A DNA stretch of 64,000 nucleotides from assembly GCA_916610825.1 (NCBI GenBank), contig OU744447.1, positions 17,638,063-17,702,062 on the forward strand. Reading direction: 5' to 3'. Shown one piece after another: positions 1 through 57,700 of the stretch; the stretch's first letter is position 1; the number at the start of each line of letters is the position of its first letter. This DNA is from Haliclystus octoradiatus (Eukaryota > Cnidaria > Staurozoa > Stauromedusae > Haliclystidae). The notes under the pieces were generated by a model, which worked only from the letters and a program-made list of their open reading frames with translations, was not told the origin of the DNA and made no database searches. The position numbers and the translations under genes are program-made.

Positions 1-147
1 ACTGTAATATGTAATCGCCCTCTTTCTATGTCAACCTTTGTAGAGTCAACATCTATTAAATATAATCTTATACAAAACTCTACAGTATCCCGCATGCTCT
101 TGAAATGACCAATCTATCGTATCATAATAGTGAACTACCAATATTAC

Positions 148-8814: not shown

Positions 8815-9750
8815 TTTTAGAGATTGAACCGCAACCGTGATATTGGATGTAAGCGTGCTCATCACTAATAGGAGGCTGTTCATAATATGGCAGCAATGAC
8901 GTCATTGTCCTTGAAGTTTTGTGACAGAAGTATTAGCAAGTAGCAAGCCGCTATAAAGTTAGCACCTTCCTGTATTCATAATAGCTGCATGCTAAGACTC
9001 CTGCTAACATATACTATATCAATTATGATACTTGGATATACTGAAAATATCTGCAATGCTATTGGGAATCGTAGTTACCAACGTAATTTATCAGGGAACG
9101 AACAAACAAACAGGTATATGGAATAACAGATAAAGAACCGAACGAATGTGTTGTCAATCCAGTAGCTACATTTATGCAACCTAATTAGAGAATGAACGCT
9201 CATAAATGCCTGTATACAACATGACGTTGACATCAATTCCAATTTTCTAGAAATGGTATCAAGTGCAAACACGATTACGGTAATGTGTCCTTTGATAGTT
9301 AGTTGTTGTAGCATCATGTTGTGGTTATTTTATAGTCAATGCTGTCAAAGGCAAGCAATTTAAAACAAGTCAAAAATACTTTATGAAGATACAAAAATAG
9401 TTTTATTCAACTAAATGATGACACGATGCACGTAACAGCATATTAACAGGTTTCAACCGAAGATAAAAATAAGTTCTACTTAAAGACTGATCTCTCGGTA
9501 TATTATAACTAAATGTAAAATACTAGCCTATATTTACAAGAGATGATAAAAATAAAGATTGTACAAATTAGAATTTTTAAATCCCTCTAAATAAACAACT
9601 GAATATATATATATAATAAGCAATATCCCATTTGACAACGTAACTGTTAATCCTAAAATTGACTTTGCCAGCAGCCAGATGCTTGCTAATACCGCAGTAT
9701 ATGTAAAAGAAATTCCAGCTCCATATAGAAGCAATATTAAAATATGTGGC
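8815..9750. other. Intergenic, SNRNP40 to four-TM gene
   Basis: 937 bp between the SNRNP40 start codon and the stop codon of the next gene upstream on the same strand. It should hold the SNRNP40 promoter and the 3' UTR of the four-TM gene. AATAAA on the minus strand is visible around 9400-9407 as a candidate polyadenylation signal. I see no gene or repeat here. Confidence 0.5.
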
Positions 9751-12700
9751 TTACAGGAAATATGACGGGGCAGCAGAAGAATCTGCTTTCTTTGGCCCAG
9801 AGGACTGTGCAGTGCTTGATGTAGGAGGGTTTGATTTGTTTTGTGGCTAGAAAGATAAACACATCATTATCATATACACAGAATGATCCAAAGAGAGAAT
9901 ATTTTATGCACATTGTGTGAGTAGTCATTAATTGAGTTTCAATATTGCACGAATACAATGTCTGTTGATATTAATCTGCAGTGTCGCAGCTGAGATGTAA
10001 TAAATAATATTTACAATCATTGCTCTCATAGAAATAGAAGAGTGGCACAGGTTCCTTTAGTAGGGCAACATCGTCTCAATTACTTTACATAAAATATATT
10101 GAATTTTCAGTTATAATGCAATTAATGTATATTGAGTGACAATGGCAAGGCCCTAAAATGTAGTACATTATTTGGAATTCTAATTGGCACCACAGGAGGA
10201 TAGAAGATATCAGACCTATATAAATTGAGGAATATAATAGAAAATTTACCTTGTACGCTGGAGGGGGTTCATTTGTACTTGACGACACCCCACTGCTTTT
10301 CATTTCGTATCCTTTGCTATAATTCACTGGATTTTGTTGTTGTTGCTGTACAGGGTAACCATATCTCTATAAAAAGATAAAAAGATGAAAGAACATTCAA
10401 CTGATGAACTTAGTTCAATGTAAATTCATGTACAATTTATCACATTCTATGTTTGACATGGGTATGATTATATGCAAATGGTGAAATGTTTGAAAATCAT
10501 AGGTCCTGCTTTGTGATTTTTGAGTTGGGGTAAAGAAAAAGTGTGTTATGTGATATTGTAACTATTGATATTGAAGGTTGTATACAAATGCCACTCATAA
10601 TAAACAAAACTTGAGTTATAATATTTGGAAAAAACATCAAATTAATTTAATTGTCTTTGTCTCAACAAACCAATCCTCACAGTTGACGTTTCTTCAATTC
10701 TTGCTTTAAATGACCCAACTATTTCTAATAGCCAAATTTATACAACAGCCATCAAAATGATATTGCTATTTTACAAGATATTTTCATGCATATTCAAATG
10801 ATTTACCTGGCCGCCAGTTGTCTGTACACGTGGTGTTGTTCCCCCACACATTCCATATAATGCTTTACAGCAATAAACAATGGCTGCAACTCCAATAAAC
10901 AAATAAAGACCAAAAATTATTGCAAGACAAAGACTAAAGATGTAGCCATCAGGTGCCATTTTCTTTTGTTCAGCAAGGCAGATAGGATCTTTAAGACGCA
11001 GATCATAATCTTGACGGTTGAAGTATGCAGATCTTGGTACTTCTTGTATGCGTAGACAAACCTTCGCATCTCTCATGCGCTCATAATAGTCTGCAGCTAA
11101 ACCAAACAGAACAAGCGAAACAAGCATTTTGAACCAAATGAATATGTTACAGAAGAAATTCAGCAAACACTGAAAAGAAAGAACATTAATTTATTAATTT
11201 AAGTTTGATTGCGTAGCTTTTGAGAGCATGGTCTGAAAAAGTTTATGCCTTCAGAGATCCAAAGATTTTTCAAGTGAGACCTTCGGATTTTTTCCCAGAC
11301 ATATTTTGTATCAATTATCAGAACAAGGCGGTCCGTTATTGATTTCATTGTCAACACTCCATCCTGTTTAAACTTAAACTAGTAAAGAAATTAATTCAGA
11401 ACTTGATGTAAACGTAAACAAGCACTGATTATCGATTTGTGAATAGACAAATAATCTTTGGAAATCCGAAGGTTATAGTTTTATCTTGACATTTAGTAAA
11501 AATCTTATAAGAAAACAGTTCATTCTTGGCTGCCTTCGGATTTCAGCTCAGTCTTCTGCGATCTAGGATTGCAGGATCGCAACTTTTATCGAACCCTGGT
11601 TAAGAGTGGTTCACACAGTGGGCTAAACAGTAAACTTCGGGAAAACGAGGTTCACATGAACTTGAATGAAAACAATGCATTTACTTTTGCACTCAAAATA
11701 ATCATGTAGACATGTAGTACAGTCATTATATGAAAAAACCCACCACTAATTGCAACAGAAACTTTTTTGGTAGGATCTAGCGTCAAATTTTATGCTCAAC
11801 ATCATATCAAAACTCTAGAAACATCCAAGGTGGCGAAATAGGCTTTTTCGACAAAAGTAGTATCAGCAAACATGATTCCGAGGCTACGTATTTTAAAGAC
11901 ATGAATGATTCAAAAAAGCAGTTGCACTAAAACGGAACATATGACGTTGAATATTTATCACAAAGATAGCCTATGTATACAATTTATGCATCATAATTAC
12001 TGCACTGACCAGAGATCTATTATTGAAATTGAATGATGAAAACATTCCAACAAATCCAGCCAAACAAATCTGTAACAGAAAAAACATATACTTCAGATTA
12101 TACTAGTACACAAATCTTAGTTTCAAGACGGTATCCGGTCATATCATCCAGTTGGGACATTGTCCATGTTCTTTGTTTACAATAATGTCCAGTCGCAAAA
12201 AATGATCGTTCTTCATTTCTAGCTGGATTAATTAATTAATTTACTTATCAAGTTGATTACTTGTGGAGGTGATTGCATCAAATCAGATACTAATTAAGAA
12301 TTATAACTTGACCAAAACATGCGCTGGAAGAAGATTGCGTGAAAATTCGAAAACAAGTCAATGAAACTACAATGCTTAAATATTAACATTTAGTTATTAT
12401 TGAGATTTTACAAGACATAGTATTAAACAAACGGTTTATACATCATTTACCTATTGTACGTTTACTAAACTTTAATTGGCCTTCATTGAAATGAACGCGT
12501 AAAAATTTCGAAAATTGACGAAAAAAAACACTAATGCTGTTGCCCTTGAGAGTTATCCATGTTTTAAAATTAATATTTGTATCAATATAAACTGTTGTTT
12601 TTGATTTATTAAATAACGAAGTGAATTAGACTATTAGCTGATAATAAACCTGGACCTTTTCGAAACTGGACGTTATGGTATTCGGTAGGGCGTTCTCGGA

Positions 12701-17061: not shown

Positions 17062-20002
17062 CTATCTCACCCTTGCTTTTGCATCCTCCAATTGGCGTTT
17101 CTCATAATGAGAAAAGTCATCAAAAATTGAAGTTTGCGCCTTGTAAGTATGAATAATTTTCAATACTTGTTTGGCCTTATCCAGAGGAACCTCCTGAGTG
17201 TCTCTAGAATTAGTAACAGGTTTATTTTCATTGTTCTCCAAACGAATATGCCTGAGACTCATATTGGGAACGTCCTTGACATAAACCCATTTTACTTCAA
17301 ATCGCCCTTTCCATTTATCCTGTACCCATATTCCAGTCTCAATACTGCAATCAACTTCTGATTTCATTAATGCTATACCACAAAAATGTCCACTTCCATT
17401 TACACTGAACAACAGATAAATGGGATATTGTCCATTAGTACATTGCTCTTTGTAAGCTTCATTCAATCTCCTATTACCATGTTCAGTACTTGTCCAAATA
17501 GAATATTTAATTGAACGAAATATATCATCTTCACTGTAGCTTTTTATAATAAACACTCTTGCATCCTTAGAGTTCAATGTAAATTCCTTGGGATTGTAAT
17601 TATTATCAGCACATAACTTCTTCAATAAAGGAGAGCTATCTTTTGTTAATAAACTATCCGTGTATTTTCCATTGTCAGAATTCTGGTTTTGTCTACCCAA
17701 ACGTCCATTATTTTGTTGTTGCCTACCTGAATTTTTATTTCCTACACCATTTTGGTGAGACACCGGTTTAGATTGGTTGTGACTAGTAGTTTTCTGTTGT
17801 GGTCTAGGTGCTGATGCTGGCTTAGGTTTAGCAGGCTGTTTTGCAACAGCAGCCCAAGAAATAGGCTTTGCTGGAGCATTTGAAACAGCATTAGTGGTTG
17901 AGTGGGTAGTTGATTGTCCAGTTGGTGCTGACGTAAATTTAGGCTCAGATTCATCACCATTTTTAGTGGGTTCAATTTCAGCAGAGATATTAAGTCCAGA
18001 TATTTGTTGCTCAATAGATGTTTCAGTTTCAGTATTAGGTTGTACAGTATTAGGGTCAGAAATATTATTTGCTAAAGGTGGGTTAGCTGCCCCATTTTCT
18101 ATATCATGATGTTGAGTAATAGGTCCTTTGTATACATCAGGTAGAAGTTGATTATTCTGAGCAGCTTCTTGTTGTTGTCCCCATGTTAAATTCAAGTCCG
18201 CGTTACCAGTAGGAAAGAAAAACGAATTAGGACTATTAAAATAAGACCATGATCCAACATTATTTCCATTCATATAAGCACCAGAATACGTAGTGTTGTA
18301 AGCAGGATTATTCTGATTAAACAAATGATCTGGTGGTTGTACATATTGATTCTCTGTTGGTGGGGGGCCACCAGCATTGATAGTTCCAAAACCAAAGTTA
18401 TTTGGTTCATATGGCTGGTTACTATTACCAGTTGACCACGTCGGTTGATTAAAATTAGGAAATGACATAGGGAATCCAGTGTTTGTTGTTTGATAGTAAG
18501 GTCCAGATACGTATGACTCGGGTATACCTGTTACACGCATGCCAATTGGTTGTTGTCCTCCAGGTGCGTTCTACACAGATATAGAATAGATCACATGTAG
18601 TTGCAACAAATTTTCATCACATGATTTGAGGTTATAACTCAATTTAAAATAAGAATTTCTCTGTCAGCGTCAATGAATAACACATAATTACGCTATTTTT
18701 CCTTGGTCTGAAATTTGACTTAGGCTGTATGTATGTATTTAAGGTTGGAAAATGTTTTCTTACTGGTCAGATATAGGGCTCAATGCAACAGATAAATAGC
18801 AGAGCTTAAAATAAAGATCTGCCATAATTTGAAGTAGCAAATATGATTGTCTGATTGTCTGACTATTTTATTATGTATGTATTTATATATTTAAAAAATT
18901 GAATGCTGGAATCGATATCCCAAAAACGTGGCAATCATACAACATACACAATTGATGCCACATTGACTATATTCATCATCGTAATTAGTAAGGATTATAT
19001 TAACATTGAAATATAATGCTTATTTCTAACATATGCCTCTCAGACTGCCTCACATTCTATCCAAAATCTCGTTTTTCACAAACATAGTATTTGCATAGCT
19101 TTACCTGGATTACTTGCTTGTTAGCGCCATATATTCCATAGTTTTGTTTGTCCATTTTGTGATTGTCTGTGGAGACAAAAAGATATTTCAAAATGAACGA
19201 TAATCTCATGGGATTATCCCTTACAGTATCACAATAACTGCTAGGGCATACTGTAGGCTTTTCTGGATAGGAAAGATATATTTATCAAGTCTTTGTTGTA
19301 GCCAACAGAGAGCACTGTTTACGAACTAAAAAAGTAGCAATATTCTGTGTGTTTAGATAAAACAGCTGGCAAGATAAGTTCCAGGATAGATAGTTTACAT
19401 GATTCAAAAGAAGTACTGCAGAAGTGGATGATAATGTATGACATAAGTGCAATAATGTCACAATCTTGCTATAATTTTCAGGGCCCGGCGTTAAAACATT
19501 TAGGTCGAAGTATTTAACTATATTTCGATGAGTACCAGTGAAAAGCTTTATAGATCTGACAAAGCAAACGACAGTAAAAAAACAACCTATCAACATATGA
19601 AAACTGCATCAAATGACAATATTATGTTGACTGCTTATCAAGAGAATTGGACCAGCAAAACTGAAAACAGATTAAATAGATTTAAACAGTAGGCCTACGA
19701 AGCAAAATGTAAACTCTATAAAATTTGTGTTGGATTCGACTTACTAGCACTGCCGTTTGTTGACTGGTCTTTCAGTCGCTGTAGGCAAAAAAAGTAAAGT
19801 ATAACAGATGTAAACTTAACTACCAAAACAGAGCATATTTCAGACAAAATATCAAGATAAAATATATTGGCAAAGTAGAAAATCTCTTCTCGATAATTGA
19901 AAAATGGCCGCCACTAGAACACCACGTCATAGTAATGTACAACAAAACCGGAAGATATTGTAATGATTAACAACGTACTTGATCAAAAGCAGTGTTTGAC
20001 AT
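17062..20002 (-). CDS. YTHDF: YTH-domain m6A reader, YTHDF type
   Basis: Cytoplasmic reader of N6-methyladenosine in mRNA, which in animals promotes decay or translation of marked transcripts. Coding exons: 19979-20002, 19745-19778, 19105-19166, 17062-18570, giving 542 residues. The spliced start [19 protein letters not shown] matches the conserved start of vertebrate YTHDF1-3. The middle (about residues 60-370) is low-complexity, rich in Asn, Gln, Pro and Tyr, with [16 protein letters not shown]. The YTH domain spans about residues 375-520 with [39 protein letters not shown] and [11 protein letters not shown]. The three cage tryptophans are present at about 399, 455 and 460. The C-terminal AKARVR ends at TAG, but CAAGG/GTGAGA just before it looks like a splice donor, so a short further exon is possible. 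It is the single YTHDF in view, against three in vertebrates. Confidence 0.95.
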
Positions 20003-21660: not shown

Positions 21661-21928
21661 TGATAAATTCTGTAAAATTGTTGATATAATAGTTGGGCAC
21701 AAATTCTTCGTATCTGCAAATACTATATGCATTTATGTTTGACTTGCATAGCGAGTGAAATTGTCTAGTACACGTCTCAAAATATCCCTTGGGTTTGGAT
21801 TTTGTTCCAGATTTTGCCCAGAGCCATGCGGGAGGGGTGTAAACGGCAATTTAAGAGTGACGCGGACACCAGTTTTCTTATGTCCGTGCACATTTTTACA
21901 CTACTGAAGTATAATATAACATAATAAA

Positions 21929-22076
21929 TATAATATAATATAATATAATATAATATAATATAATATAATATAATATAATATAATATAATATAATATAATA
22001 TAATATAATATAATATAATATAATATAATATAATATAATATAATATAATATAATATAATATAATATAATATAATAT
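21929..22076. repeat. (TAATA)n microsatellite
   Basis: About 30 uninterrupted pentanucleotide copies, ending in 'taatatataa'. The long reading frame of alternating I/L/Y residues across it is an artefact of the repeat. Confidence 0.97.
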
Positions 22077-23000
22077 ATAATGAGATAGACACAGTCATGA
22101 ATGTGGAAGTGCTCATTGTTCGGTAAAACTGAGAATTCTATTTTTCGATAAGCTTATTCAAGATTGTCTCTTGTGTTAAATGTCCTCATCTGCCGATAGT
22201 AATTTCCATAGGACTGGGCTGAATTACGCTAATTTTTATTAGAAACAACGTTTTGGCTACATCTCATTCTCTGTAATAAATAGATCTTAATTTTTGTAAA
22301 CCATAAGTTAAGAATGGCTGACAAATGTACCGTAGTTGAAACGCTGTTCTAAACGGTTAGATACTAAATAAAATAAAAATTTACTATTGCGACTGACTTT
22401 TGTTTAACCAAGAAGCTTTTCTTCAGAATTATATATGTTGATATGAAAATCCGGCTCAAGTTAATATTCGCATTGGCTATGTCGTGTCACCTGTATAAAA
22501 GGGTCATCCACGATTATAGACGATCGTGGTCGCCCTGCCAAGGTTGAGTATACGTTACTTTGCGTTTTGAAATCCAATAAACAATAAACACAGATAATTA
22601 ATAAAGTAGAAAACAAAGTTAGATTTCAAACTGAAAATCAATTATTTTTATATCCAAAACAAGTATAATACAGCATTAATTTTCCATTCCCATATTTTAC
22701 ATTAACAAAATAAAAAAAAACTCAATTAAATTTAAATTATTTCTTTTAGCTTGAAAATGAATTACATTGATAATTCGAAACGTTGCAATAATCCTCCTAG
22801 TATTCTTTCGTCGTTATCATTTTCTTCGAAAAACAACTCGTCAATATAATTCATTAAATTGAAAATCTCACGTATGAGTAAATCAGCTCTATCACGAAAA
22901 AGCAACATTTTACATTGAAAGATGCGTGTATATATATTACTATAGTTCTCTATCTATCGACATATATATTTATAGAAGAGTTCTCGCTTCCTCGTCGTGA

Positions 23001-38319
<15,319 letters not shown>

Positions 38320-41519: not shown

Positions 41520-42779
41520 TTAATAGGAGGCATGATTGACACATAATCTACATCCAGAATTAATATGTTCTAGAACTTTCCTTTTCATGTCATTCACCTG
41601 CATTCTCAAAGATGACGCAACAGTATTTAATTCAATGTTTTTATCTTTCAAATGTTGAACACGAACTTCAAGTTGAGCTTCTCGTTCTAGTTTCTTCTTA
41701 CGGCATTTCGATGCAGCAACACGATTTTTCAATTTTTTACGCTCCCGTTTGACGATTTCTTGAACCTCTAAATCAATCGGTGGCACAGGGAGTACAGAAT
41801 ATCCCCCGTTTCCGGTATCCATATCCATCACATCCGATGAGGCATCAAACTTTGCATTAGCCAATTGCCGTTGCTTCAACATAAGACTAGCTTGGTTATC
41901 TGACATAGGGACCATTGTTGGTTTGAACGTATCTGCAGAGTGACGGTGCTTACCACCACTTATAATATCATCATCAAATAAACTTGTATGCGAAAATGAC
42001 AATTGATGGTTATCATGTTCCAAGTGTTGTTGTTGTTGCACACTAGTATAACCATGTAGATCATCAAACATTCCATTACTATTCATAATTGATGTTAGCA
42101 TATGATCATTATCTGTTGATTCTGGTACTTGTTGTAACCCTTCATCTTGCATTAGTGTGTTACCAGGTGCTGATCTAGGCCGTAATGTGTCCATGCTGCA
42201 AGATGACCGTCCCGCATTCGTTTCAATTCGTTGACGCCCTTGGCCAGCTAACAGTGACTCGAGGGCTTGATTTGTCTCCGTGATAAATTGTAATTCATGA
42301 GCAAATAAATTCGATGCATTTGGGTGCTGATGAAGATTGATATTAGATGAGTTACTCGTGCGGTTATCAAATTGTCCCGTTGTTGAATGGCGTTGTAAGC
42401 GATGGGGTATCTCGTGACCCCCATTGACCCCACTATTAGCGTAAGTATTAGCTCCGTTGATGACATGATTTTGTTCTGACATGATCAGCTTTTCTAATTC
42501 AGGTGATCCTAGTTTTAGCAGATTGAGATCAGGTGAGCCAAGCATAGGGGAATGACCCCCACCTTCTAATATGCTGTCAAAGCATTCTGGCAAAGGCTCA
42601 GATTCTAGGTTTAACTTCAAAGCAGCAGGATTGATGGCATTGGTTCTATGGATAGGCTGAAAAGACATCGTTTGCTGATGGTGTTGGTTTTGATGGGGTG
42701 ACATTCTCCCCATATGAGGAGTATTGAAAGGGCGATTATCACAGAACATATATTCCGTTGGCATGCCATGAGTTGCCAT
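41520..42779 (-). CDS. JUN: Jun, AP-1 bZIP transcription factor
   Basis: Nuclear transcription factor that dimerises with Fos or ATF proteins and binds TRE/CRE sites. Single uninterrupted reading frame of 419 residues, intronless like vertebrate JUN. Near the N-terminus LGSPDLNLLKLGSPELEKL (about residues 81-99) reproduces the JNK target region, with both Ser-Pro sites in the positions of human Ser63 and Ser73. A Gln/His/Asn-rich middle follows. The bZIP has a basic region at about 344-368 with KLKNRVAASKCRKKKLERE (the invariant N-x7-R pattern and the redox-type Cys), then leucine heptads to about 405 and HINSGCRLCVNHASY at the end. The start at 42779 is the first ATG; the upstream frame is open for at least 36 bp, but without an ATG. 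Other bZIP families are ruled out by the two SP sites plus the C-terminal NSGC motif. Confidence 0.96.
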   Translation of the reverse strand: MATHGMPTEYMFCDNRPFNTPHMGRMSPHQNQHHQQTMSFQPIHRTNAINPAALKLNLESEPLPECFDSILEGGGHSPMLGSPDLNLLKLGSPELEKLIMSEQNHVINGANTYANSGVNGGHEIPHRLQRHSTTGQFDNRTSNSSNINLHQHPNASNLFAHELQFITETNQALESLLAGQGRQRIETNAGRSSCSMDTLRPRSAPGNTLMQDEGLQQVPESTDNDHMLTSIMNSNGMFDDLHGYTSVQQQQHLEHDNHQLSFSHTSLFDDDIISGGKHRHSADTFKPTMVPMSDNQASLMLKQRQLANAKFDASSDVMDMDTGNGGYSVLPVPPIDLEVQEIVKRERKKLKNRVAASKCRKKKLEREAQLEVRVQHLKDKNIELNTVASSLRMQVNDMKRKVLEHINSGCRLCVNHASY

Positions 42780-44488
42780 TGACAATACAAAGATACTCTT
42801 CTGCTTAAAATATAAGTGTTATCTCCTCACAGCATAAAGCCAACCATTGCCAATCCTTATATCTCCATCTTTTGTCCTTCGGTGTTCTTGAGAATGTCTA
42901 ATACCTTGTTATTAAAGTACGATTTGCAAGAAGGAACAATCACGCACGCCTGTTTCATTTATGAGATCATACGAACACGTTGACGGGCTGGCTTTCCCGC
43001 CGTGTGACGTGCGCACACAATCAACGATTACCAACACGAGGGTTGATCACGCATATAAAAGCAACCCAAACGATAGAAAACAAAATTAATATAGATTAAT
43101 TTATAGCAAAATGTAAGAAATAATCTCAGCTCTGCTTCAAGTTTGGAGACGTTCTTGTGATCGTTTGATCTTTGAATGTCGCTGGGAAATGATCGTTTGA
43201 TCTAAAGGTCGTTAAAACAATCTAAAGTGCATGGGTGCGTCCACTGGAACCATTTGAGATGTGCTCTACTGACAGTGGCAGGTACCTGCGATCATTGAAA
43301 GCCGGTTTAATAGAATGTGGTCTTCTTCAAATGTAAATCGAAGAAGGGATCAGAAACGTTTCTGATTAAAACAACGATGTTATATGGAGATCATCAGTCA
43401 ACATCGTCTTAATAATGAAGGATGGAATGGATTGAAATTGGAGCAAAATCAGGAATGAAGAGCATTACAAAGAGATGATCAAGTTGTGTAGTGAAATGTT
43501 GAATATGCCTGAGGTCAAGTATTGAAGCCTCGTATAGGTTAAAAAAGCAAAGAACGTCCGTCACAGAGATCGCAGAGCATAATTATACTCTTATACAATT
43601 CTATACATGTGCGTCTCTGCACAAGTACAACTGAGCACGGTCACATTATTTTTATATCTATGGATGAAATTCAAGTTTGCTTTGAATTAAATATGATTCT
43701 CAGCGTTTTCGTGGTATCTCTGACATCAAATTAGATAAAAATTATAAAAAGACATTATAGGCCAATGACCCATTGAAATTCCCATGCATATTTACGATGA
43801 TAATATAAAAAATCGTATACTATCAAGAATTTCTTAATTCCATTCCAATCCAAAGCGATTCATCATCAAATGAAAACCGTGGAATTTGTCGCATTCCTCT
43901 TCATTTTTCTGTTCGCCAAGTAGCTATATACAACTACATGAATTATGAAGTAATTTAAGTCTACGTTTAAATGAATTACATTAAAAACCAATTGAAAATA
44001 AGCCAAGTCCAATAGTGTATATCGTATCTCCTCAAGCAACGCGACACGCACCTTTAATGTCTTAAATATACGGTTGGTGAGAATTAAGGCACATAACAAG
44101 TTTTCTAGTAGCAAATCAAATGAAGCTTGATTGTGAATTTGATATAATAATTATTCACCAATGTTTTCTGGATATAAGACATGTAAAAGATTGCCCTGGA
44201 GTCTTTCAATCTTCATCAGCACCCCAAATCTTTCACGTTAGATATTAGATTGTTATTATACAAATGCGAATCACAATATCTCCAACAATTTCATATTAGA
44301 CTTTTGAGATTTAAATAAAATTGAAAATATGAATGAATAATTTACAGGAAAGTGATCAGTAAGTCTAGATCACCATTTATAGAGGTCAACAAATTTAACA
44401 GCCTCTTTGAAATGAGGAGTGTGAGGATAGAAATGTTCATCGTAATATTGATCAAGTACTCACAACTCCATCATTTTTCATTAGTCTT
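42780..44488. other. Intergenic, JUN upstream region
   Basis: 1.7 kb between the JUN start and the TBCB stop. The part nearest JUN (42950-43070) is less AT-rich and contains motif-like sequences. 'atgatcgtttgatct' occurs twice (about 43157 and 43189). The rest, including 43866-44114, has only short frames that look random. Confidence 0.5.
42993..43012. promoter_or_regulatory. Candidate E2F- and CRE-like sites upstream of JUN
   Basis: TTTCCCGCC (E2F-like, 42993-43001) and TGACGTGC (CRE half-site, 43005-43012) lie about 220 bp upstream of the JUN ATG. Vertebrate JUN promoters are autoregulated through TRE/CRE-type sites, so the second motif is plausible. This is motif matching only. Confidence 0.3.
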
Positions 44489-47400: not shown

Positions 47401-50400
47401 AGAGATCAACTTTTTCATGGTATGCAATTTCAGTTGAATTAATTTACTTCCAAGAGATATTTAATCATCATCTTATGATATTTGATCATCATGGTGGGAT
47501 TAGCTCAGATGGCAGAGCAACCAAACTTCAGATTGGATCATATCTGATCGACTGTGGTTCAAATCCCCCTAAGGTCAACTCAGCCTTGACTTTATCTGAA
47601 ACATCAAATGAGTACCATCTGAGGATGGTGGATGGAATGGTCCAGACGAAATTGCATTGTGATTTGCTGCGGCGCATCGTTGCGCAATGACAATCAAGAT
47701 CTATCTGCCATCAAATCTGTTGAAATTGATCTGCAGTGTCGCGGCTGAGATCAATAAAGAGCGTTTAAAATCATTGCTCTTAGCGAAAAAAGCCACTCAT
47801 CTAGAAATAGAGGAGTGGTACGGGTGCCTTCGGTAGGGCGACACCGTCTACATTACTTACTTATCTTATTTGAGTTCAAAGAACACTATTCTGTAACTCA
47901 TGTATCTCCTAGAGGGAGGATTAGCTCAGATGGCGGAGCAACTGAACTTCAGAAAATCCACTGAAGGTCAACTCAGCCTCAACTTTATCTAAAACATCAA
48001 ATAATACCATCTAAGGATGGCGGATGGAACGGTCCAGGGAGAATTGCAGTGTTAGTAGCTGCGATGCATTGTTACGCATTGACAATCCAGGCCTATCTGC
48101 GATGAAATCTGTTGAAATTGATCTGTAGTGTCACAGCTGTGATTAGTAAAGAGCATTTAACATCATCGGTCTCAGTGAAAAGAGCCACTCCTCTAGAACT
48201 AGCAGAACAAACAAATGACAAATAACAAATGTCAAACTATCAAATACGGTACTCATCACTGATTAGCCTTGCACCATAGAAAACTTATGGGCAAACAAAA
48301 CAGATACCAATATAAAAAGTTAATTTCCTCTTGCCTCTTGATGTTTCTGTATGGCTGGTATTGATCAATTAACTTACGTGTATTCGGGTGACATAACAAA
48401 AACCTTGATGCGATCCAAATTTAGCATCATCATCATTTGCTGTGAATTTTAATTTATCATCTTCATCATAAAATTCCAATTTCATTGACCCAGATGCTGT
48501 GCCTGTGATCAATTCTAATTTCCCCTAAAAAAAATGAAGTAAATCAAGATATTAAGTACCTGGATTTGGTCACATACATATGTAAAGTATATTAGCTAGA
48601 AACCCATTCTGCGTATCATGCACTACATGGAGAATTAGATAAATTCCCTGTACATTCTTCCGATGTTGGCATTAAACCTTCGAAACCACTCAAGACATTA
48701 ACTGTGTAGCTTTCAGCACTAAAATCCTTAGAGGAAGGAATCCTTGTACTTGGAGCGCCAATTTCACGCTAGCCTACATCAATTCAACATTAAAATACAC
48801 CAAAAACTAGTTGAAAACTATAGAAAAATCCCAGGATCTATCTGTAGCATACACCAAGCTATTGAATAGCCAGATACGATTTACGTTGAACATACAGTGA
48901 AACCCCGTTAATATCACGACCGCGGTGCAAGCAAGAATCGTGATATTAAGCGGATCGTGATATTAAGCGGATCGTGATATTAAGCAGATTGACCACAGGG
49001 AGTACAAATAGTTCATGAAACAATAGAGGACAAAAGAAACAAGAAACAATAGAAATGGCGAACGCAGAATTAATAATCCGAAGTTCTGAGGCGGGTAACA
49101 AAATAGACATTTTTGTAAACAAACAATTTAGAAAACATTCAAATAAAATCAAGAATAGAAATAACAATAAGTACTGTACAGAATAAATGTAATATAAATT
49201 AGTAATTTAAAATGGTTAGTTTGCCCAGAGTCAGTCTTCTTCGACATTAGTTTACAGAATTCATGTGATGGTTTCAACGCGCTTCATGTTTCATCACGTC
49301 TGTTCGATCAATTAATTGTCATAGCAACAGAGTCTGAAATAGAACTAATGGCGCGTAACTTGAGATTTTCTTTGTTATGGTAATTAGGGGAATTCCCGCC
49401 ATTCAAACATTTAAACATGCAAAAGACGTCGCTTTGAAATATTTGTCGCGTGTTTGTTTCGTATTTTATATTTTGTCTAGTCAATCTATGGCTAAAAAGA
49501 GTGAAACCTAAAAGAAAATTTTCCGCCAATCAGGAAACAAACCATGTATCTATCATGTACTGAAAGAAAAGAAAAATCGCACACGGATACAGTACTTGTG
49601 TTCAATTTCTAAAGAACAACAAACCGTGTGATAATTACTTTCTAATAGCACTTCTTTGTTTGAATAACTTGCAGTATGTGATCAAATTCAAAGAAATCCA
49701 TTGATACAGGTGTCTTCGGTAGGGCGACACTGTCTACATTACTTACTTTTACACTATGGGTGACAATGACACAATGCAGAGAATGGACTGGCACAAAGGA
49801 ATGAATTCCGTACAAATTCTCAGAATAAATTCAAAAGTTGGTAGGGCTAAGACTGTTAAAATAAGGGCCTTAACCTAAAACAAAACAAATATTTCACTAA
49901 TTCTTCACTACAATGAGTCAGGATATTGCTAGCGGCAGGGGGCTCATTGCTGTACATTTTATTCGCTTAGGGGATATATCATCCTAGCTACAATACAGTC
50001 AGGGAGGGAGTCAGAGAGGGAGTGTAGTAGTACTAAACATTCAAAAGAACTGAGGCAAATCATCAAAGGCTACGAAATTAATTGTTATCAATTCATGATT
50101 TTATGACATAATTTAAGGGTTAACCGTTATTAGCCTTAAATAGGCACAAAGAAATTACCAGTTTATTCGGACATGTGATGTTCCACTGTCCTTAGACCTT
50201 AGGAATAGATATAATTTATAAATAGTAACCAAGAACTATGTTAGTTATGTTACTATAGAAGCAAAACTCAGTAAAAGCATCAATGATCAGAGCTCTCAGC
50301 TGACAGCTCTAAGCATATCTCTTTTGGAGGGAAAATACAGCATGGCAGCCTTGAAGGCTCTGTGAAAATACTGAAATCCTAGGGCCTTTATTCTAAGTGG

Positions 50401-50699
50401 CTGGTGTTTTCAAGCAAAGGCCACTTGACAGAAGACTGATGTGGAATCGGAACCGCAGAAATCAGATAGGTCTATTGATCATATTATGCTATTATGCTTA
50501 TGTTTATGCATATCCAAATGCAAACAGTGTGGCATGAAACATCCTTAAAAGTTGAAAAGGGAAAATAGCAAAATATGTGTACCCTAATACAATTAGTACT
50601 CACTTTCAGTTCTAATATGGAAAGATCACTTGCAAATCTTTTCTCTGAAGGAAAACCAGATAATGTTGAAGTAATTTGAAAATTATTAACGACCGCCAT
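44489..50699 (-). CDS. TBCB: Tubulin-specific chaperone B (tubulin folding cofactor B)
   Basis: Cytosolic CAP-Gly protein that works with TBCE to handle alpha-tubulin during heterodimer folding and dissociation. Exons: 50604-50699, 48378-48524, 46941-47040, 45610-45798, 44968-45040, 44489-44597; phases agree; 237 residues (human 244). An N-terminal ubiquitin-like domain covers about residues 5-85, with [21 protein letters not shown] charged linker follows with the conserved [23 protein letters not shown]-Gly domain runs from about 157 to 228 with [36 protein letters not shown] (the GKNDG tubulin-tail-binding motif) and [17 protein letters not shown]. The C-terminus ends in acidic DIDEM, comparable with the human -DEI tail that contacts the CAP-Gly groove. 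Intron 3 contains a Penelope-like fragment; introns 1 and 2 contain SINEs and a TTAA element. Confidence 0.96.
45960..46346 (+). pseudogene. Penelope-like element GIY-YIG endonuclease fragment
   Basis: An open frame opposite to TBCB, in its third intron, encodes a C-terminal domain typical of Penelope-like retroelements. [18 protein letters not shown] is a cysteine-containing GIY-YIG core (here YVG). It is followed by [18 protein letters not shown] and the closing [16 protein letters not shown]. The first motif residues differ from the usual GxxYIG, and no RT domain is found upstream (the sequence before 45960 is TBCB coding exon and intron), so this is a 5'-truncated remnant. Confidence 0.82.
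46605..46705. repeat. TTCATGAAC repeat family copy
   Basis: 'cagttcatgaaacaa', 'ccatgaacagttcatgaa' and 'actgggcca' match the elements at 35815 and 56100. In TBCB intron 3. Confidence 0.55.
47188..47386. mobile_element. Short MITE with TTAA target site
   Basis: The left end TTAA-AGGAGCAAAAATGACCGG and the right end CCGGTCAATCTTGTCCCT-TTAA form inverted ends of about 20 bp with TTAA on both sides (47184-47187, 47387-47390). TTAA is the piggyBac target, so a piggyBac-type MITE is likely. In TBCB intron 2. Confidence 0.7.
47494..47860 (+). mobile_element. tRNA-derived SINE, near full length
   Basis: The head is tRNA-like: box A TAGCTCAGATGG at 47501-47512 and box B GGTTCAAATCC at 47556-47566, the RNA polymerase III internal promoter pair. 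About 290 bp of unrelated body follow, ending 'ggtagggcgacaccgtcta' and 'cattacttac'. The same body recurs at 47914, 53620 (minus), 9960, 26650, 30060, 40786 and 49694. This is the best reference copy in the window. Confidence 0.85.
47914..48210 (+). mobile_element. tRNA-derived SINE with box B deleted
   Basis: Second copy in the same orientation 50 bp after the first. Box A is intact (ggattagctcagatgg), but the sequence jumps from 'gaacttcag' to 'aaaatccactgaaggtcaac', removing box B. The 3' end is cut at 'cactcctctagaac'. Without box B it should not be transcribed by Pol III. Confidence 0.8.
48894..48990. repeat. Tigger-like terminus with three 17-bp tandem copies
   Basis: CAGTGAAACCCCGTTAATAT starts after TA, like pogo/Tigger ends. 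'atcgtgatattaagcgg' is then repeated about three times (48937-48987). The right end of the element is not clear. Confidence 0.5.
49694..49748 (+). mobile_element. SINE 3' end fragment
   Basis: 'aggtgtcttcggtagggcg', 'acactgtctacattactt' matches the last 50 bp of the SINE at 47494-47860. In TBCB intron 1. Confidence 0.7.
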
Positions 50700-51783
50700 T
50701 TTGATAAGGGATAATAAAATGAGATGGAACTATGGATGGAACTGAGATTTGTTCCTTGGTTGAGAAGAGGTATGTTCAGGGGGCAAGGGGACTTTAACCT
50801 CTCAGAGCGTTGTCTGGTCGGATAGAACAGGTATGAAAAGGTTATAATATTTAAATGAAACAATCATTAAGTAATTTGTTGCAATCTATTGCCCCTGTGT
50901 TCACACATGTTGGTTACCTTGAGAAGCTTGTAATCTTAGATGATAAGATATTACATTGTAAGATCGAATTCAGACAGGCGTCTTAGATGTGATTGATATA
51001 AATAAATTTGAATTTGAATAACAATACCTATAGAAACTCATCTCTGATAATCTACTTGATGATAATACTGTATCTATCATTACTAATCATTAAAAGCCGA
51101 TTTAAAATTTATTTTCTTGTGTATACTATCATAAGGTGATTTAATTATGATCATTTTACATGTTTATTATAAACAGGCAGTGACTCCGATACAAAACAGA
51201 GCAGGAACGTCTGTCAGGTTTTGGTTCAGAGCGCCAAAACCTAAGCATTACAAATTATGTGAATTCTCTATTGATTTGTTCGAGTATTGACAGTATCTGA
51301 ATGTTTAGTCTTCTGCAATTTTTGAATACTGTATTTCCATTTTATCTGGCATACTTAGTTGAGGTTAGGCCTCTAAGTAAAAATATCTGTTTTCTTCTGA
51401 ATTTGCTTTAGCCTTCTGGAGTCTAGGATTGCATTTGCATGAGTCATACCATGCTCAGACACAATGCTAATGGATCTCATATGGTAGGCTAATATTAAAA
51501 CGTTGATAGCTTTGAATCATTGTGAAATTATCAAAAATATATATTTACCTTTGTGGAGGTTTATTTTATTATTGATTCATTCATTTGTTATGGACCCTGA
51601 TAAAATTATTAACCGGAAACTGCTTAGGTTAGAAATTTGACAGCTAAATAGAGAAAGGTGTAAGAAATTTAAAGAAACATATAACTATAACATATTTTAT
51701 GTGTTGATATTTTCGTAATTTTATGCAAATTATATGTTGTAAAGCTGATTCATAACTATTAAATTTATTTATCCGATATGTTG
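50700..51783. other. Intergenic, TBCB to ZNF277
   Basis: 1.08 kb with the TBCB promoter and the ZNF277 3' UTR. Minus-strand AATAAA occurs at 51764-51769 (only 15 bp past the ZNF277 stop) and at 51560-51570. Nothing else recognised. Confidence 0.5.
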
Positions 51784-54700
51784 TTATTCTTCGTTGTCGA
51801 AACAAAGTAAGGCATCATTGTCATATGTTGAGAAGAAGTAGCTGAAAAAATAAAATAATTATTATTTTCTAAATCATTAAACATTTGAAAAAGAGTTTGA
51901 AAGCTTCAGCATATTAAACTCCCAACAGATGCTGTCAGAAAAGCAAATCTTGCAAAGTTGTACAGTCAAACATGTTATAACGGTCACCTCTATAAAGCGG
52001 CCACCCTATAGTGGTCACTCTTGCAGTGTCTAAAATAATATTTTCCATTGAATCAAACCTGTATATAAAGGCCACCTGTTTATATTGGTCAATTTTTCTA
52101 CCTCTCTTAGCTGGCTGTTATATACAGGTTTCACTGTATTTGTAATTTTTAAAATTTTAAAATTTGATCAATTCTGTTCAACAATCCTTAAACATTTTTC
52201 AAATATATCTTGTTGTCTGCTGCACATTCAAACAAGGCTGTCAATGCTACCTATTGGGTCAAGGAGGAATCAGAGTGGAATAGGGGGCTATCACTGATTG
52301 TTATTATACCTTGCTATGCTCCATGACGCTAAGAGTCAGGGCACACTGGTTAGAGGAAACTATTACAAAAAGCGAATTGCGAAAGACTAATCAGATATAA
52401 CCTTGAAGAAGTCACGTCATCATACAGAGTGAAGAAGATTGCCTAGAGGGTGATGAAGCAGGCAAATTTTAAGGACAGATCAATTATTTGAAAATGATTT
52501 TCGCAACAATATTTACTCTAGACATTTATTGTCCTTTCCTGTGTGGGGGGGTCAAAGTATGTGCAGTAGAACTTACTCTGGTTTATCCCACATCATTCTC
52601 TCTTGTGGCAATTTGAAATGAGATTCTTTAGTCATATGGCATCGTAATTCATCCGTAGTGTCCAGCTTTTCAGAACAATGCGGACATACTTTTTGATAAA
52701 CCTTGAAAAGAGCTACACATTTTAGAATAAAATAAAGCCATACTAGACAGACAGTGTTAGGTAACTTAGTGGCTGTTAACAGGAAGCATCCCAATACACC
52801 ATTAACCTCATTAGGTCCAAGACAGAATAGAAAAGCATTTAATGCTTGTATCCTTGTATAAGTTCATGAACAACATTTATCCGTTATGCAAGATATTATA
52901 ATTATAACTAATTAGCTCTTGATACGTTAGGCCTATAGTATCTAATATCTATGAATTCACAGAAAATATGAAATCCTAACCTGTAACAGAACGACTAGAG
53001 GAATTTTACCTAAAATGAACATACATACAGGCACAGCCGTAGCTTCCCGTTCCAAAAGTAATAATTAATTATGCATGATTATTTCAACTAAACTAAATAT
53101 GCTTTTCAAATTGATTGTGATAGAATTTAAGGAGAAGAACATTACGAAAATAAAATATTAATTAAAAACTTTATCTATGTCATCAAAAGTGGGAAATCAA
53201 TGAAATCGAAGTGGAAACAAGCAGTTGCTTAAACGTCTGCATCTATAGGTTTAACATACCTTGTGCCGCATATAATTTACAATTTTTACTTGTTCATAAA
53301 ATCCAAAGTCTATTAAAAAATAACAGAAATAATTGAAAATCGAGGATATGCCTACTCAAGGGTATTGTCCATTGCTATTCCAGTTTTATTTACCTGGGGA
53401 ATTTCTCAGTTTGTTAAGATCAAAATTGTGTAGATCCTGACAAAAATAAAATGGAGAAAAATTCATCAAGGCTAGATAGATATGAGATACAAGTCATTCA
53501 AAAGCGAGAAAACAACAATTGGAAAGTCTCATATGAAGCAACAAGGACTGAATAAATTGAATACCCTAGTGTACATAAATGTTAGATAGACTACAGACCA
53601 AGTCATAAAAGTAAAGTAATGTAGACGGTGTTGCCCTACCGAAGGCACCCGTACCAATCCTCTATTTCTAGATGAGTGGCTTTTTTCGCTGAGAGCAATG
53701 ATTTTAAACGCTCTTTGTTGATCTCAGCCGCGACACTGCAGATCAATTTCAGCAGATTTCATGGCAGATAGGTCTTGATTGTCAATGCACAACGATGCTC
53801 TGCAGCTACTCACAATGCAATTCCCTCTGGATCATTCCATCCACCATCCTCAGATGGTACTCATTTGATGTTTCAGATAAAGTCAAGGTTGAGTTGACCT
53901 TAGGGGGGTTTGAACCACAGTCGATCAGATATGATCGGTCTGAAGTTTGGTTGCTCTGCCATCTGAGCTAATCCTCCTAAAGTAACATGACTAGGTCGTA
54001 ACATGATCGTAACATGATCTTGCATCCTCATGTTCTACTAGACTCAGCGAAGTATGATAAAGAAACCAAAATAAAAGAACTGTAAGTAGGTAGCTACATA
54101 TGAGTAAGAGATGCACGAAAAAACAAAGACAACAAAAAGTAAGCAACTTTGGGCATTCCGAAGTGAAAAACGTTTATGAGTTCATAACCGTTCATGAACT
54201 GTTCTGAAACCCAGAAGGAATAACATGCACGCAGACAGGCTTTCCCTCCGTATAGTCCATCTGTGTATTGACACAAGTATCGCATACCAAGTGTTTGTAC
54301 TGAATTCATATTAAATAAATATTTACGTAGTGTGGTTTACTGTCATTACACAACTTTCATTATTTTAAAATGCTTCTCAATTTTCTTTTTCTATTTACAT
54401 ATTCTATTAGTCAATCAGAATATACTACCAAAAAGCAGTAGTGGAAAGAACAATCAGTACACTAAACTTGTCACTAACGCACAGATGAACTATACAAAGA
54501 AAACGTCTGTCTGCACACAGGCTAAGAAAGAACTGTTCATGAAATGTTTATTAAGTATGAATTGTTCATGACCTGTTATTGACTCAAAAAAAGTTAATCA
54601 ATTATTCATGAATCCGTGAATGTTTCACAGGGCTTCAAACTATGTCCACTTTGATGTGAATTCAAGATTAAATTCTACCATTTGGAGTTCCGCAGCACTT

Positions 54701-57700
54701 TTATGATGGGGAATAAATATCTTCCTGATTTCCTGAACATGATTTTCCAATCATCGTGAAGGAGCTGAATGGATAGGCATGATTAATTCATCGCAAACTC
54801 ATTTGCATTTAAAACCGGTTTCATTTCTTTGCTCAAATACATCTTGCCTGATATGTCCGCAATGGACTGGGCCTATTATGAGTTGCTCGTACCAATTGTC
54901 TCTATCTTGGAGATGTCTTACTTTCATGTGTGTCACTGTGTCTTACTTTCATGTGTGTCACTGTGTCTTTGGCATCAGAATGAAATTCATCACAAAATAA
55001 ACAAACTGTCTCTATCTTGGAGATGTCTTACTTTCATGTGTGTCACTGTGTCTTACTTTCATGTGTGTCACTGTGTCTTTGGCATCAGAATGAAATTCAT
55101 CACAAAATAAACAAACTGTCTCTATCTTGGAGATGTCTTACTTTCATGTGTGTCACTGTGTCTTACTTTCATGTGTGTCACTGTGTCTTTGGCATCAGAA
55201 TGAAATTCATCACAAAATAAACAAACTGCTTGACTTCCGATTGATTCATCCCAATCCTCCCAATCTCTGGAACAAAAGCACACCGATCAAAAAACAAACT
55301 CTCTGATGAGCATGTTCTAAACTAATTAAATAATTTGATTGATGTTTGAAATAAACTTAATACTACGGTGCTAAGTCATAGAAAACACATTTGTCTGAGG
55401 TGTATTGTGCATTTATAGTTAACACCGTATGAACTAAGAAAAATTATTTGACAAAGCTATCAGAACAAACTAGACATTAAAGCTAACACTAAACGTCAAA
55501 CGTAATTAGTAACCCTACAAACATTTCAACATTTAATTATTAACCAATTGATCCCAAAGTAGCTCATAACAAATTCACCTTTCTGTTGATTTTCTATTTT
55601 GGGGCAATATTGATCTTTCATCTGTATCCTCTTCTGCCTGTAATTGTTCCCACGTTTTACCAGGCTCCTATAGTACAAGGATATACAGTATAGTATTTAT
55701 AATGATGTAGCCATTTCATATAACTCCATGTATTGATGGAATGCCAAGACCTGACTTTCATAAATGACATACTGGGCAATTGCAACATGTTATTTGGAAC
55801 TAGCTTTGATGGTGTTGCCCTAAACATTCCTTACAAAAGAACCAAGCAATATCAACCCTTTAAATTAAATCAGAGTAACAACATCAACTGCAAGACTATA
55901 TTTGGTTGCCATTTTCAAGCCATTCTTCAATGTTTGCAACCTTGGATTGAAGAAGACTTCCTTGTGGACCTTTATTCACATACTTTGAAAGGGTATCTTT
56001 AGACATGTTTGGAATTTATATGGTGAATCTTTGCAAATTTTGGAGCAGCTTAGAACTTTAAATAACTTGCTGATATTGATATTGAAATGATTGCACTTGC
56101 AAATCAATAAGTTCATGAATAGTTCATGAAGAGTCTTCATGGACAGTTCATGAACATTCTTCATGAACGTAAATTGCTAAAACTTTTCATGAACACTTCA
56201 TGAATAGTTCATGAACATTTCATGATCATTTCATGAACTTTTGGGCAATTTCACGTTTATGAACTCATGAACTTTATCACAGGGGAAATAATTAAAACTT
56301 CTAATATTCCGTAAAACAGTTTTGATAACATTAGAGATAGTTGAAGTTCAGCGACTTAGATATTGATCCACTCTGCCATCTGAACTATTCCCAGTATCCA
56401 AATATTTGATATTTGTTAAAGGGGCAACCTCAAATGTATAAATTACAGGGTATGGCTGTGTGCAAGGTAAATAAATATTTGATCAATTTTAATATTGGCT
56501 GGTAAAAAAGTTCAAATTCAATCCTATCGAAATCCATCCAGCCAACATAAACCGAATTAATCTGAAATATTGAATACTTACTAGATAGTTAATGACATAA
56601 AATCGGTCATATTCTTTATTTTGTGAATTGATTCTTTTGTGTTGTTTCTTTCGCATATGTTCACGTAATGTGTTCCAATCTTTAAAGACTTTCTCGCAGT
56701 ACAGACATATCAGCCTATAGCACAATAAAACAATAAAAAATCAAGTCAAGCATTGCCTCATCATAACTTTGAAATAAGTTAAATGTAATGTAATTGCATA
56801 ATTAATGCAGCTATTCAGATCAGCAACAGTCAAATCTGTTATAACAGTCACATATCTTTAGTGGTCACTCTTGATATGTCTTAAATAGTATTTTCTATTG
56901 AATCAGCCCTGTATATAAAGGCCACATGAAGATAGTGATCAATTTCTCTACTTCTCATAACTGGCTGTTACATACAGATCCCACTGTACCAGAATGATGT
57001 CAAAACATACAAAACTTGTAGCTCACTTACCGTTCTAATTTATCTTTGAGAATGTCAAGAAATTCTTCTACAAAAACTGAAACATTGAAATTATGGTTAA
57101 ATAAAGGGTGCAATTAATATACTGAAGATGATCTGTGGTCAGTCATTGACTGGTTGTGACATACCAATATTTTCAACATTGCCAACATTGAAGAAATGAT
57201 CCTGTTTCATGTGATCAAATAGCACAGACCTATAAAATACATTAAATAGAAATTGTTAAAATCCTACTGTTGAAATGTCAAGATAAACAAAACACAAACA
57301 CTTTTCAATGATTCAAGCTGCTTTGTAAAACTCTAAAAATTTTCAAATGTTGTTTTAGTGATTAGATTGGCTAATTCCTGTGTTGGGATCACACAACCCA
57401 AAACAACATGAACATCGTGTTGGAGATAAAAACTTCCAAATAATTGTAAATAAACAATACGATCATGTTAAAATCGTTGATGATGTATATTTCAAAATAA
57501 ATATCAGATATAAATATATATAGTAATAATATTAGAAATATCACAACTTAATACTGTATTGGCAATTGGAAGGTCAAGAAAGACACATTCGTTGGTTATA
57601 ACTCCAAGTTTCATGTTATTAAACGATCATCAGACAACAAATACTAACTAAAATTACAAACATACACATTAACACATAGCTAGACCAACAGAAATATGAT

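Follow-up and report, generated by a model that had tools for sequence, protein, structure and literature searches.

Nested tandem array of an exon end and its splice donor in the ZNF277 gene of Haliclystus octoradiatus, with further exon-end arrays in the same genome

The end of exon 9 of the ZNF277 gene of Haliclystus octoradiatus, together with its GTAAGA splice donor, is repeated in a nested tandem array. This array is probably a young minisatellite that spans the donor-side exon-intron border, of a type that recurs in the genome and is tolerated, since a normal mRNA can still come from the first copy. The explanation is based on the anatomy of the array, the gene model, the reading-frame outcomes and the other arrays, all of them read directly in the window (the whole stretch of 64,000 nucleotides that was analysed) and in the genome. 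The coordinates of the features are detailed in Table 1.

Table 1. Coordinates of the ZNF277 gene, its array and the other exon-end arrays. Positions are those of the window or, for L numbers, of the locus so named.
Feature	Position	Strand	Basis or remarks
ZNF277 coding region (single copy), 13 exons encoding 389 aa	51784-61551	-	gene model
ZNF277 exon 9, 100 nt, AAA directly before donor 1, last 62 nt within array copy 1	55167-55266	-	gene model
ZNF277 exon 10, supplies the rest of the finger (DLHNFDL...)	53394-53436	-	gene model
Nested array of three 110-bp tandem copies plus 2 bp, 25-bp duplication in each copy, six GTAAGA	54897-55228	-	TRF and direct comparison
Donor 1, GTAAGA	55161-55166	-	used alone, 389-aa protein kept; the only one of the six to do so
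Donor 2	55136-55141	-	+25 nt, protein ends at 311 aa
Donor 3	55051-55056	-	+110 nt, stop at 312 aa
Donor 4	55026-55031	-	+135 nt, stop at 312 aa
Donor 5	54941-54946	-	+220 nt, stop at 312 aa
Donor 6	54916-54921	-	+245 nt, stop at 312 aa
Junction acceptor GACAG, two places	55116-55120, 55006-55010	-	low score
PHTF-like exon, 132 nt, its end seeds the 35-bp array	27338-27469	-	open-frame joining
Array of eight 35-bp copies plus 3 bp, with eight GTAAGT donors	27077-27359	-	TRF and direct reading
GTAAGT donors of the 35-bp array	27337, 27302, 27267, 27232, 27197, 27162, 27127, 27092	-	
L021, 21 bp, 4 copies	481-564	+	WDR59; phmmer gave 1.5e-16 with a chain named SEC13 homolog and 2.5e-16 with WDR59
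L020, 34 bp, 4 copies	498-620	+	Sec24C (2.2e-13) and Sec24D
L027, 47-bp unit, roughly 30 copies as counted from the match list	from 556	+	ion channel PF00520, 2.5e-14
L023, 57 bp, 3 copies	from 556	reverse complement	open frame and acceptor only
L024, 66 bp, 3 copies	from 480	+	open frame and acceptor only

TRF, run on the window, returned the array with a period of 110 bp, 3.0 copies and 100% matches, and a 25-bp period within every copy. The 110-bp copies (minus strand 55228-55119, 55118-55009 and 55008-54899) showed 0 differences on direct comparison, and the six GTAAGA words, each starting on the minus strand at the higher coordinate of Table 1, were spaced 25, 85, 25, 85 and 25 bp apart. 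The exonic part of the unit was 62 nt long, formed by CAG and the 59 nt that follow, and the word GACAGTTTG was present at the copy junctions (55120 and 55010, minus strand). The preliminary description had reported a nested tandem duplication with six identical donors, on which TRF and direct comparison agree, and three identical large copies, as found here. The interval given there (54897-55266) contains the array (54897-55228) and also the unrepeated 5' part of exon 9 (55229-55266); its exon portion of 59 bp corresponds to the nucleotides after CAG and falls short of the whole exonic part of the unit.

A DNA search of the genome (261.86 Mb, 33 contigs) with a 370-bp query (54897-55266) gave a single match, at its own locus. 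An exact-array scan of 160 kb of background (16 x 10 kb) yielded two arrays with a unit of at least 20 bp, namely 31 and 37 bp. Chance or a mis-read repeat were ruled out by TRF, the direct comparison and the background scan. The copies, read in one haplotype, are placed head to tail with a unit longer than 10 bp, as in a minisatellite. Folding against 100 shuffles ruled out an RNA hairpin formed by the array, the stretch being less stable than the shuffles (z 2.24; 100/100 shuffles at least as stable).

The exons of the ZNF277 model are joined by GT-AG introns of 84 to 2131 nt into a frame without stop. The protein matched the Pfam family zf-C2H2_2 (PF12756) over two stretches, with an E value of 5.7e-39. 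Residues 278-329, encoded from exon 9 on, were similar to a zinc finger of PRMT3 (E 4.4e-6), and the stretch that includes them also matched ZNF622, more weakly (0.0012). The name and orthology of ZNF277 are presumed from agreement with the human protein sequence, and the name is also that of the preliminary description. The 11 matches of a protein search of the genome were all located at the gene's own locus, and a second ZNF277 copy was ruled out by the DNA and protein searches. Exons 9 and 10 encode, by eye, the fourth of five fingers; exon 9 had already been described as the first part of a C2H2 finger of ZNF277, in accordance with the 13-exon model, where exon 10 completes it. Intron 9 contains at 53690-53985 (minus strand) a tRNA-like head followed by a repeat-like tail, by eye possibly a SINE. 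Human ZNF277, according to excerpts of a review (PMC10216425), has five C2H2 fingers, of which the last two at the C-terminus are particularly important for binding uS5.

All six donors of the array scored 7.6, and the 12 donors of the gene itself span 2.8-10.1. Each of donors 2 to 6, used alone, gave a product of 311 or 312 aa that ends just before the last finger, because read-through past exon 9 meets a stop; by eye, these products continue HMKVRH, with the fourth finger still complete and the fifth lost. To judge from these frames, donor 1 is presumably the main donor in vivo. The earlier statement that later donors shift the frame was correct for four of the five, whereas donor 4, which adds a multiple of three, meets a stop nonetheless. 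Inclusion of a copy or use of a later donor was likewise said to shift the frame, but some two-step splice paths restore it: the full C-terminus was kept in 9 of the 70 paths enumerated, namely the normal path and eight others that lengthen the mRNA by 45 to 168 nt; of these eight, four need a 26-nt intron and four no intron under 60 nt. With regard to the acceptor proposed at the copy junctions, its AG exists in two places and is of poor quality, with a score of -11.7, when the 12 real ZNF277 acceptors range from -6.1 to 13.1, and with 74% of 448 decoy AGs scoring as well or better, on splice-site matrices built from 12 sites only. A second AG inside the exon copies (55077 and 54967) scored 4.4, within the range of the real acceptors, and adds 45 or 90 nt in frame.

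A second donor array is present in the window, at the end of a PHTF-like exon. Its unit is composed of the last codons of the exon and GTAAGT, and one of the eight copies carries a single difference. The exon shares a single open frame with exons 27646-27550 and 25989-25903 when they are joined, and read-through from it meets a stop after four codons. The protein, which is putatively PHTF1/2-like, gave 0 Pfam matches and no significant PDB match. Triples of AAAGTAAG gave eight genome matches, three of them in the PHTF array, four in repeat-family-like sequence and one other on C11. Triples of GTAAGT gave 431 genome matches, with the places on C1 listed, and the one flank read among them (L022) was intronic, the word there not being a donor.

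Other repeats of the window are a perfect ATCT array of about 229 copies (28316-29232), TTA x 87 (23988-24248) and TATAA x 34 (21910-22077). The minus strand also carries, by eye, putative genes for a Jun-like bZIP protein (41520-42818), a YTH-domain protein (17062-18570) and a tubulin-cofactor-B-like protein (about 48400-50700).

The genome was searched with a pattern of three AGGTRAG words, which gave 121 matches with gaps of 13-43 and 141 with gaps of 44-74, and arrays were taken from the matches listed. Among these, at least nine tandem arrays contained AGGTRAG in the unit; flanks were read for eight, of which five were exon ends (L020, L021, L023, L024 and L027). An array was assigned to the class when an open exon with an upstream acceptor was followed by at least three copies of a unit formed by the exon end and the donor. 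With ZNF277 and the PHTF-like exon, there are at least seven such loci, with 3 to about 30 copies and units of 21-110 bp. The ion channel of L027 is presumably of the potassium type, from a motif, and L023 and L024 gave no database match (for L024, in PDB). The unit length modulo three was 2 in ZNF277, the PHTF-like exon and L027, 1 in L020 and 0 in L021, L023 and L024. Two of the seven arrays are in frame and open, those of WDR59 (GKCHVGL) and L024 (VRFIVSQLFLHSDQPNYSYQPE), and read-through meets a stop in the other five. The later copies of the Sec24 array have diverged from the exonic one, as expected if the first copy alone is constrained.

Two arrays did not look like exon ends on flank reading: L019, which is repeat-like, and L025 (64 bp, about 70 copies, AGGTAAG in each unit, G000:C1:23411377-23416054), for which no exon was seen upstream. 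L026 (22 bp, AGGTRAG) has an open frame upstream, with no family match in the searches made. The matches listed also included an 11-bp AGGTRAG array at C7:26802721. Positions 1-10000 of the mitochondrial contig C33 (18,316 bp; locus L002) contained two tRNAs in 10 kb, with TGA read as Trp. Its frames, under putative names, are COX1 on one strand and COX2, ATP6, COX3 and an ND5-like frame on the other, together with a DNA-polymerase-B-like frame recognized by eye. These features fit a medusozoan mitochondrion.

The ZNF277 array was apparently seeded by short microhomology and would have grown as a minisatellite. At the four junctions read, the border direct repeats were AAGACA and CA in ZNF277, GTC in the PHTF array and one G in WDR59 (6, 2, 3 and 1 nt). 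The 25-bp duplication would have occurred between two AAGACA words, one in the exon and one just after the donor GT, and the 110-bp duplication and expansion later, between two CA dinucleotides. This order, as proposed in the preliminary description, is the most parsimonious, since the small duplication is present in each of the three large copies, unless the copies were homogenised. On the basis of 0 differences among the three copies, the 95% upper bound on the age is 4.5, 1.8 or 0.9 Myr if the rate per site and year is assumed to be 2e-9, 5e-9 or 1e-8, respectively, a bound that homogenisation would break. The array is probably recent; identical copies could also mean ongoing homogenisation, which would leave its youth unproved.

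The duplicated stretches begin in the exon and finish in the intron, so the first copy keeps the exon end and the donor, and a normal ZNF277 mRNA is therefore possible. Selection would tolerate donor-side arrays since the exon can still end at the first copy, and such tolerance, in a genome rich in minisatellites, would lead to their recurrence. The extra donors would be competent-looking spares lying in the intron, and their occasional use would give, by reading frame, a truncated protein in ZNF277 and four others and an in-frame extension of the exon in WDR59 and L024. The same logic of tolerance would permit acceptor-side arrays. The array is most likely neutral.

As a control, the scrambled motif GARTGGA (letters reversed) was searched at a spacing of 13-43. 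Its 47 matches, listed in full, contained five unique arrays with units of 20-50 bp and a 46-bp family found at several sites of C8, the remaining matches being short-unit or non-tandem. With the same gaps, AGGTRAG gave at least four regular arrays, one irregular and one of 11 bp among the matches listed. Compared with this one scrambled motif, the donor motif thus showed no surplus of arrays, and donor-specific enrichment is unsupported by the control, a comparison of array counts. About 46,000 AGGTRAG words are expected by chance in the genome, and the real donors of such a genome are, at a guess, of the same order. Notably, most of the AGGTRAG arrays with flanks read, five of eight over both gap ranges, lie on real exon ends. 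This is the outcome expected if donors are struck as often as other sites and the arrays there are not removed by selection, and donors do look to be hit at the background rate. Against this reading, two donor arrays in one 64-kb window, chosen after the fact, look like more than background.

It is unlikely that the array is functional, with a regulated use of spare donors that would give unproductive transcripts and tune ZNF277 output. The six donors are equally strong, the five later ones all give stops at 311-312 aa, just before the last finger, and the human protein relies on its two most C-terminal fingers for uS5 binding (PMC10216425, in excerpts). However, identical copies and unit lengths that differ between genes are the expectation for neutral repeats, and the donor motif shows no excess of arrays with respect to the control.

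Donor regions might also be mutational hotspots for tandem duplication, for example by transcription-linked R-loops or U1-bound nascent RNA, which we consider quite unlikely. The two cases within one window are in favour of a hotspot, as is the comparison of the five exon ends among eight AGGTRAG arrays with the acceptor side, where TTTGCAG gave a complete list of 20 matches: a repeat family accounted for five of the places, and no clear exon start was seen at the five non-family arrays (L028 was ambiguous). Nevertheless, the difference between donor and acceptor exon-border arrays was not significant (Fisher p 0.075, or 0.27 if L028 is counted), and the scrambled motif had about as many arrays. 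The matches of a further acceptor search, with TTTTCAG, were dominated by an 11-bp minisatellite (TTTTCAGTCTA, with an acceptor-like word many times, at least at G000:C1:2756728-2758254). At L031 (reverse of C11:2718901-2719450), one of the five non-family TTTGCAG arrays, 36-bp repeats were observed that by eye are coding-like on the plus strand and rich in lysine and alanine.

An incipient duplication of the zinc finger is very improbable. Here donor 2 and an internal copy used as an exon would add 84 nt in frame and give two complete fingers, the retained GTAAGACAC coding for V-R-H and so bringing the second histidine to the right spacing; the eight longer paths that keep the full C-terminus, including the four without an intron under 60 nt, and the AG scoring 4.4, with its in-frame additions, agree with it. 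This path requires, however, either a 26-nt intron or the poor junction acceptor, the shortest ZNF277 intron being 84 nt, and the path adding 45 nt requires a 65- or 175-nt intron and a 20-nt exon. A copy number inflated by the assembler, to which the perfect identity of the copies could point, is barely credible in view of the 68-fold HiFi coverage and consensus quality of 56.6 (PMC9975415, in excerpts), the 332-bp length of the array, far below that of HiFi reads, its two nested levels and the differing copies of other arrays.

A tolerated minisatellite at the donor border is thus retained as the probable explanation. The broader proposal, that Haliclystus repeatedly turns exon ends into donor arrays and that this is a live route of gene-structure change, is doubtful. 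If it were true, spare donors would buffer the exon border against mutation, in-frame units (21 bp in WDR59, 66 bp in L024) would lengthen exons by whole repeats through a later donor, drift of the first donor would shift the intron start stepwise, and intron sliding and exon growth would have been caught in the act in many genes of one genome. Intron movement and exon growth are debated because intermediates are rarely seen, and exon ends multiplied with their donors are candidate intermediates of both. The assembly, jrHalOcto1.1, has RNA-seq (run ERR9434978) and a second-haplotype assembly on record (PMC9975415, in excerpts), and donor choice is therefore directly testable at seven arrays, in and out of frame, in an animal with RNA-seq, long reads (HiFi, ERR6897437-8) and a second haplotype (GCA_916610655.1). 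The interest of the arrays lies in their recurrence and ready testability rather than in a new mechanism; they are also a trap for gene prediction.

Introns are known to arise by tandem duplication of segments that bear splice signals, according to excerpts of PMC3443670, PMC3629103 and PMC4974935. The cases of ATP2A1/ATP2A2, the potato RdRp and fission yeast, as excerpted, likewise involve tandem duplication of a short coding segment with splice signals, in units of 24 nt in fission yeast (PMC3629103); the potato duplication crosses an intron-exon border too, but on the acceptor side (PMC4974935). In Haliclystus, by contrast, it is the donor side of an old intron that is affected and the donor that is multiplied, and a new intron is not part of the picture. 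In human genes within segmental duplications, internal tandem repeats across the exon-intron border can change splicing, and in human paralogues tandem repeats at exon-intron boundaries form new introns (PMC2812944, in excerpts). The human case, in those excerpts, concerns variable repeats in recent paralogues with RNA support, whereas the Haliclystus arrays were read from DNA, in the single-copy ZNF277 and other genes. In Drosophila, near intron pairs, tandem splice sites and intron sliding involve neighbouring alternative positions of one intron border, and tandem duplication is one of their causes (PMC2891723, in excerpts); Haliclystus differs from what is described there in having as many as some 30 donors, in register and identical or nearly so, with no moved intron seen.

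The kind of event is therefore known, and donor-side arrays with many copies, present in several unrelated genes of a single cnidarian, represent a variant for which no description was found among the literature matches listed (open-licence papers, by which absence is not proved). With minisatellites, the Haliclystus arrays share the head-to-tail units (21 to 110 bp), the near-identical copies and their abundance in this genome; unlike ordinary minisatellites, they span the end of a coding exon and its donor, which constrains the first copy.
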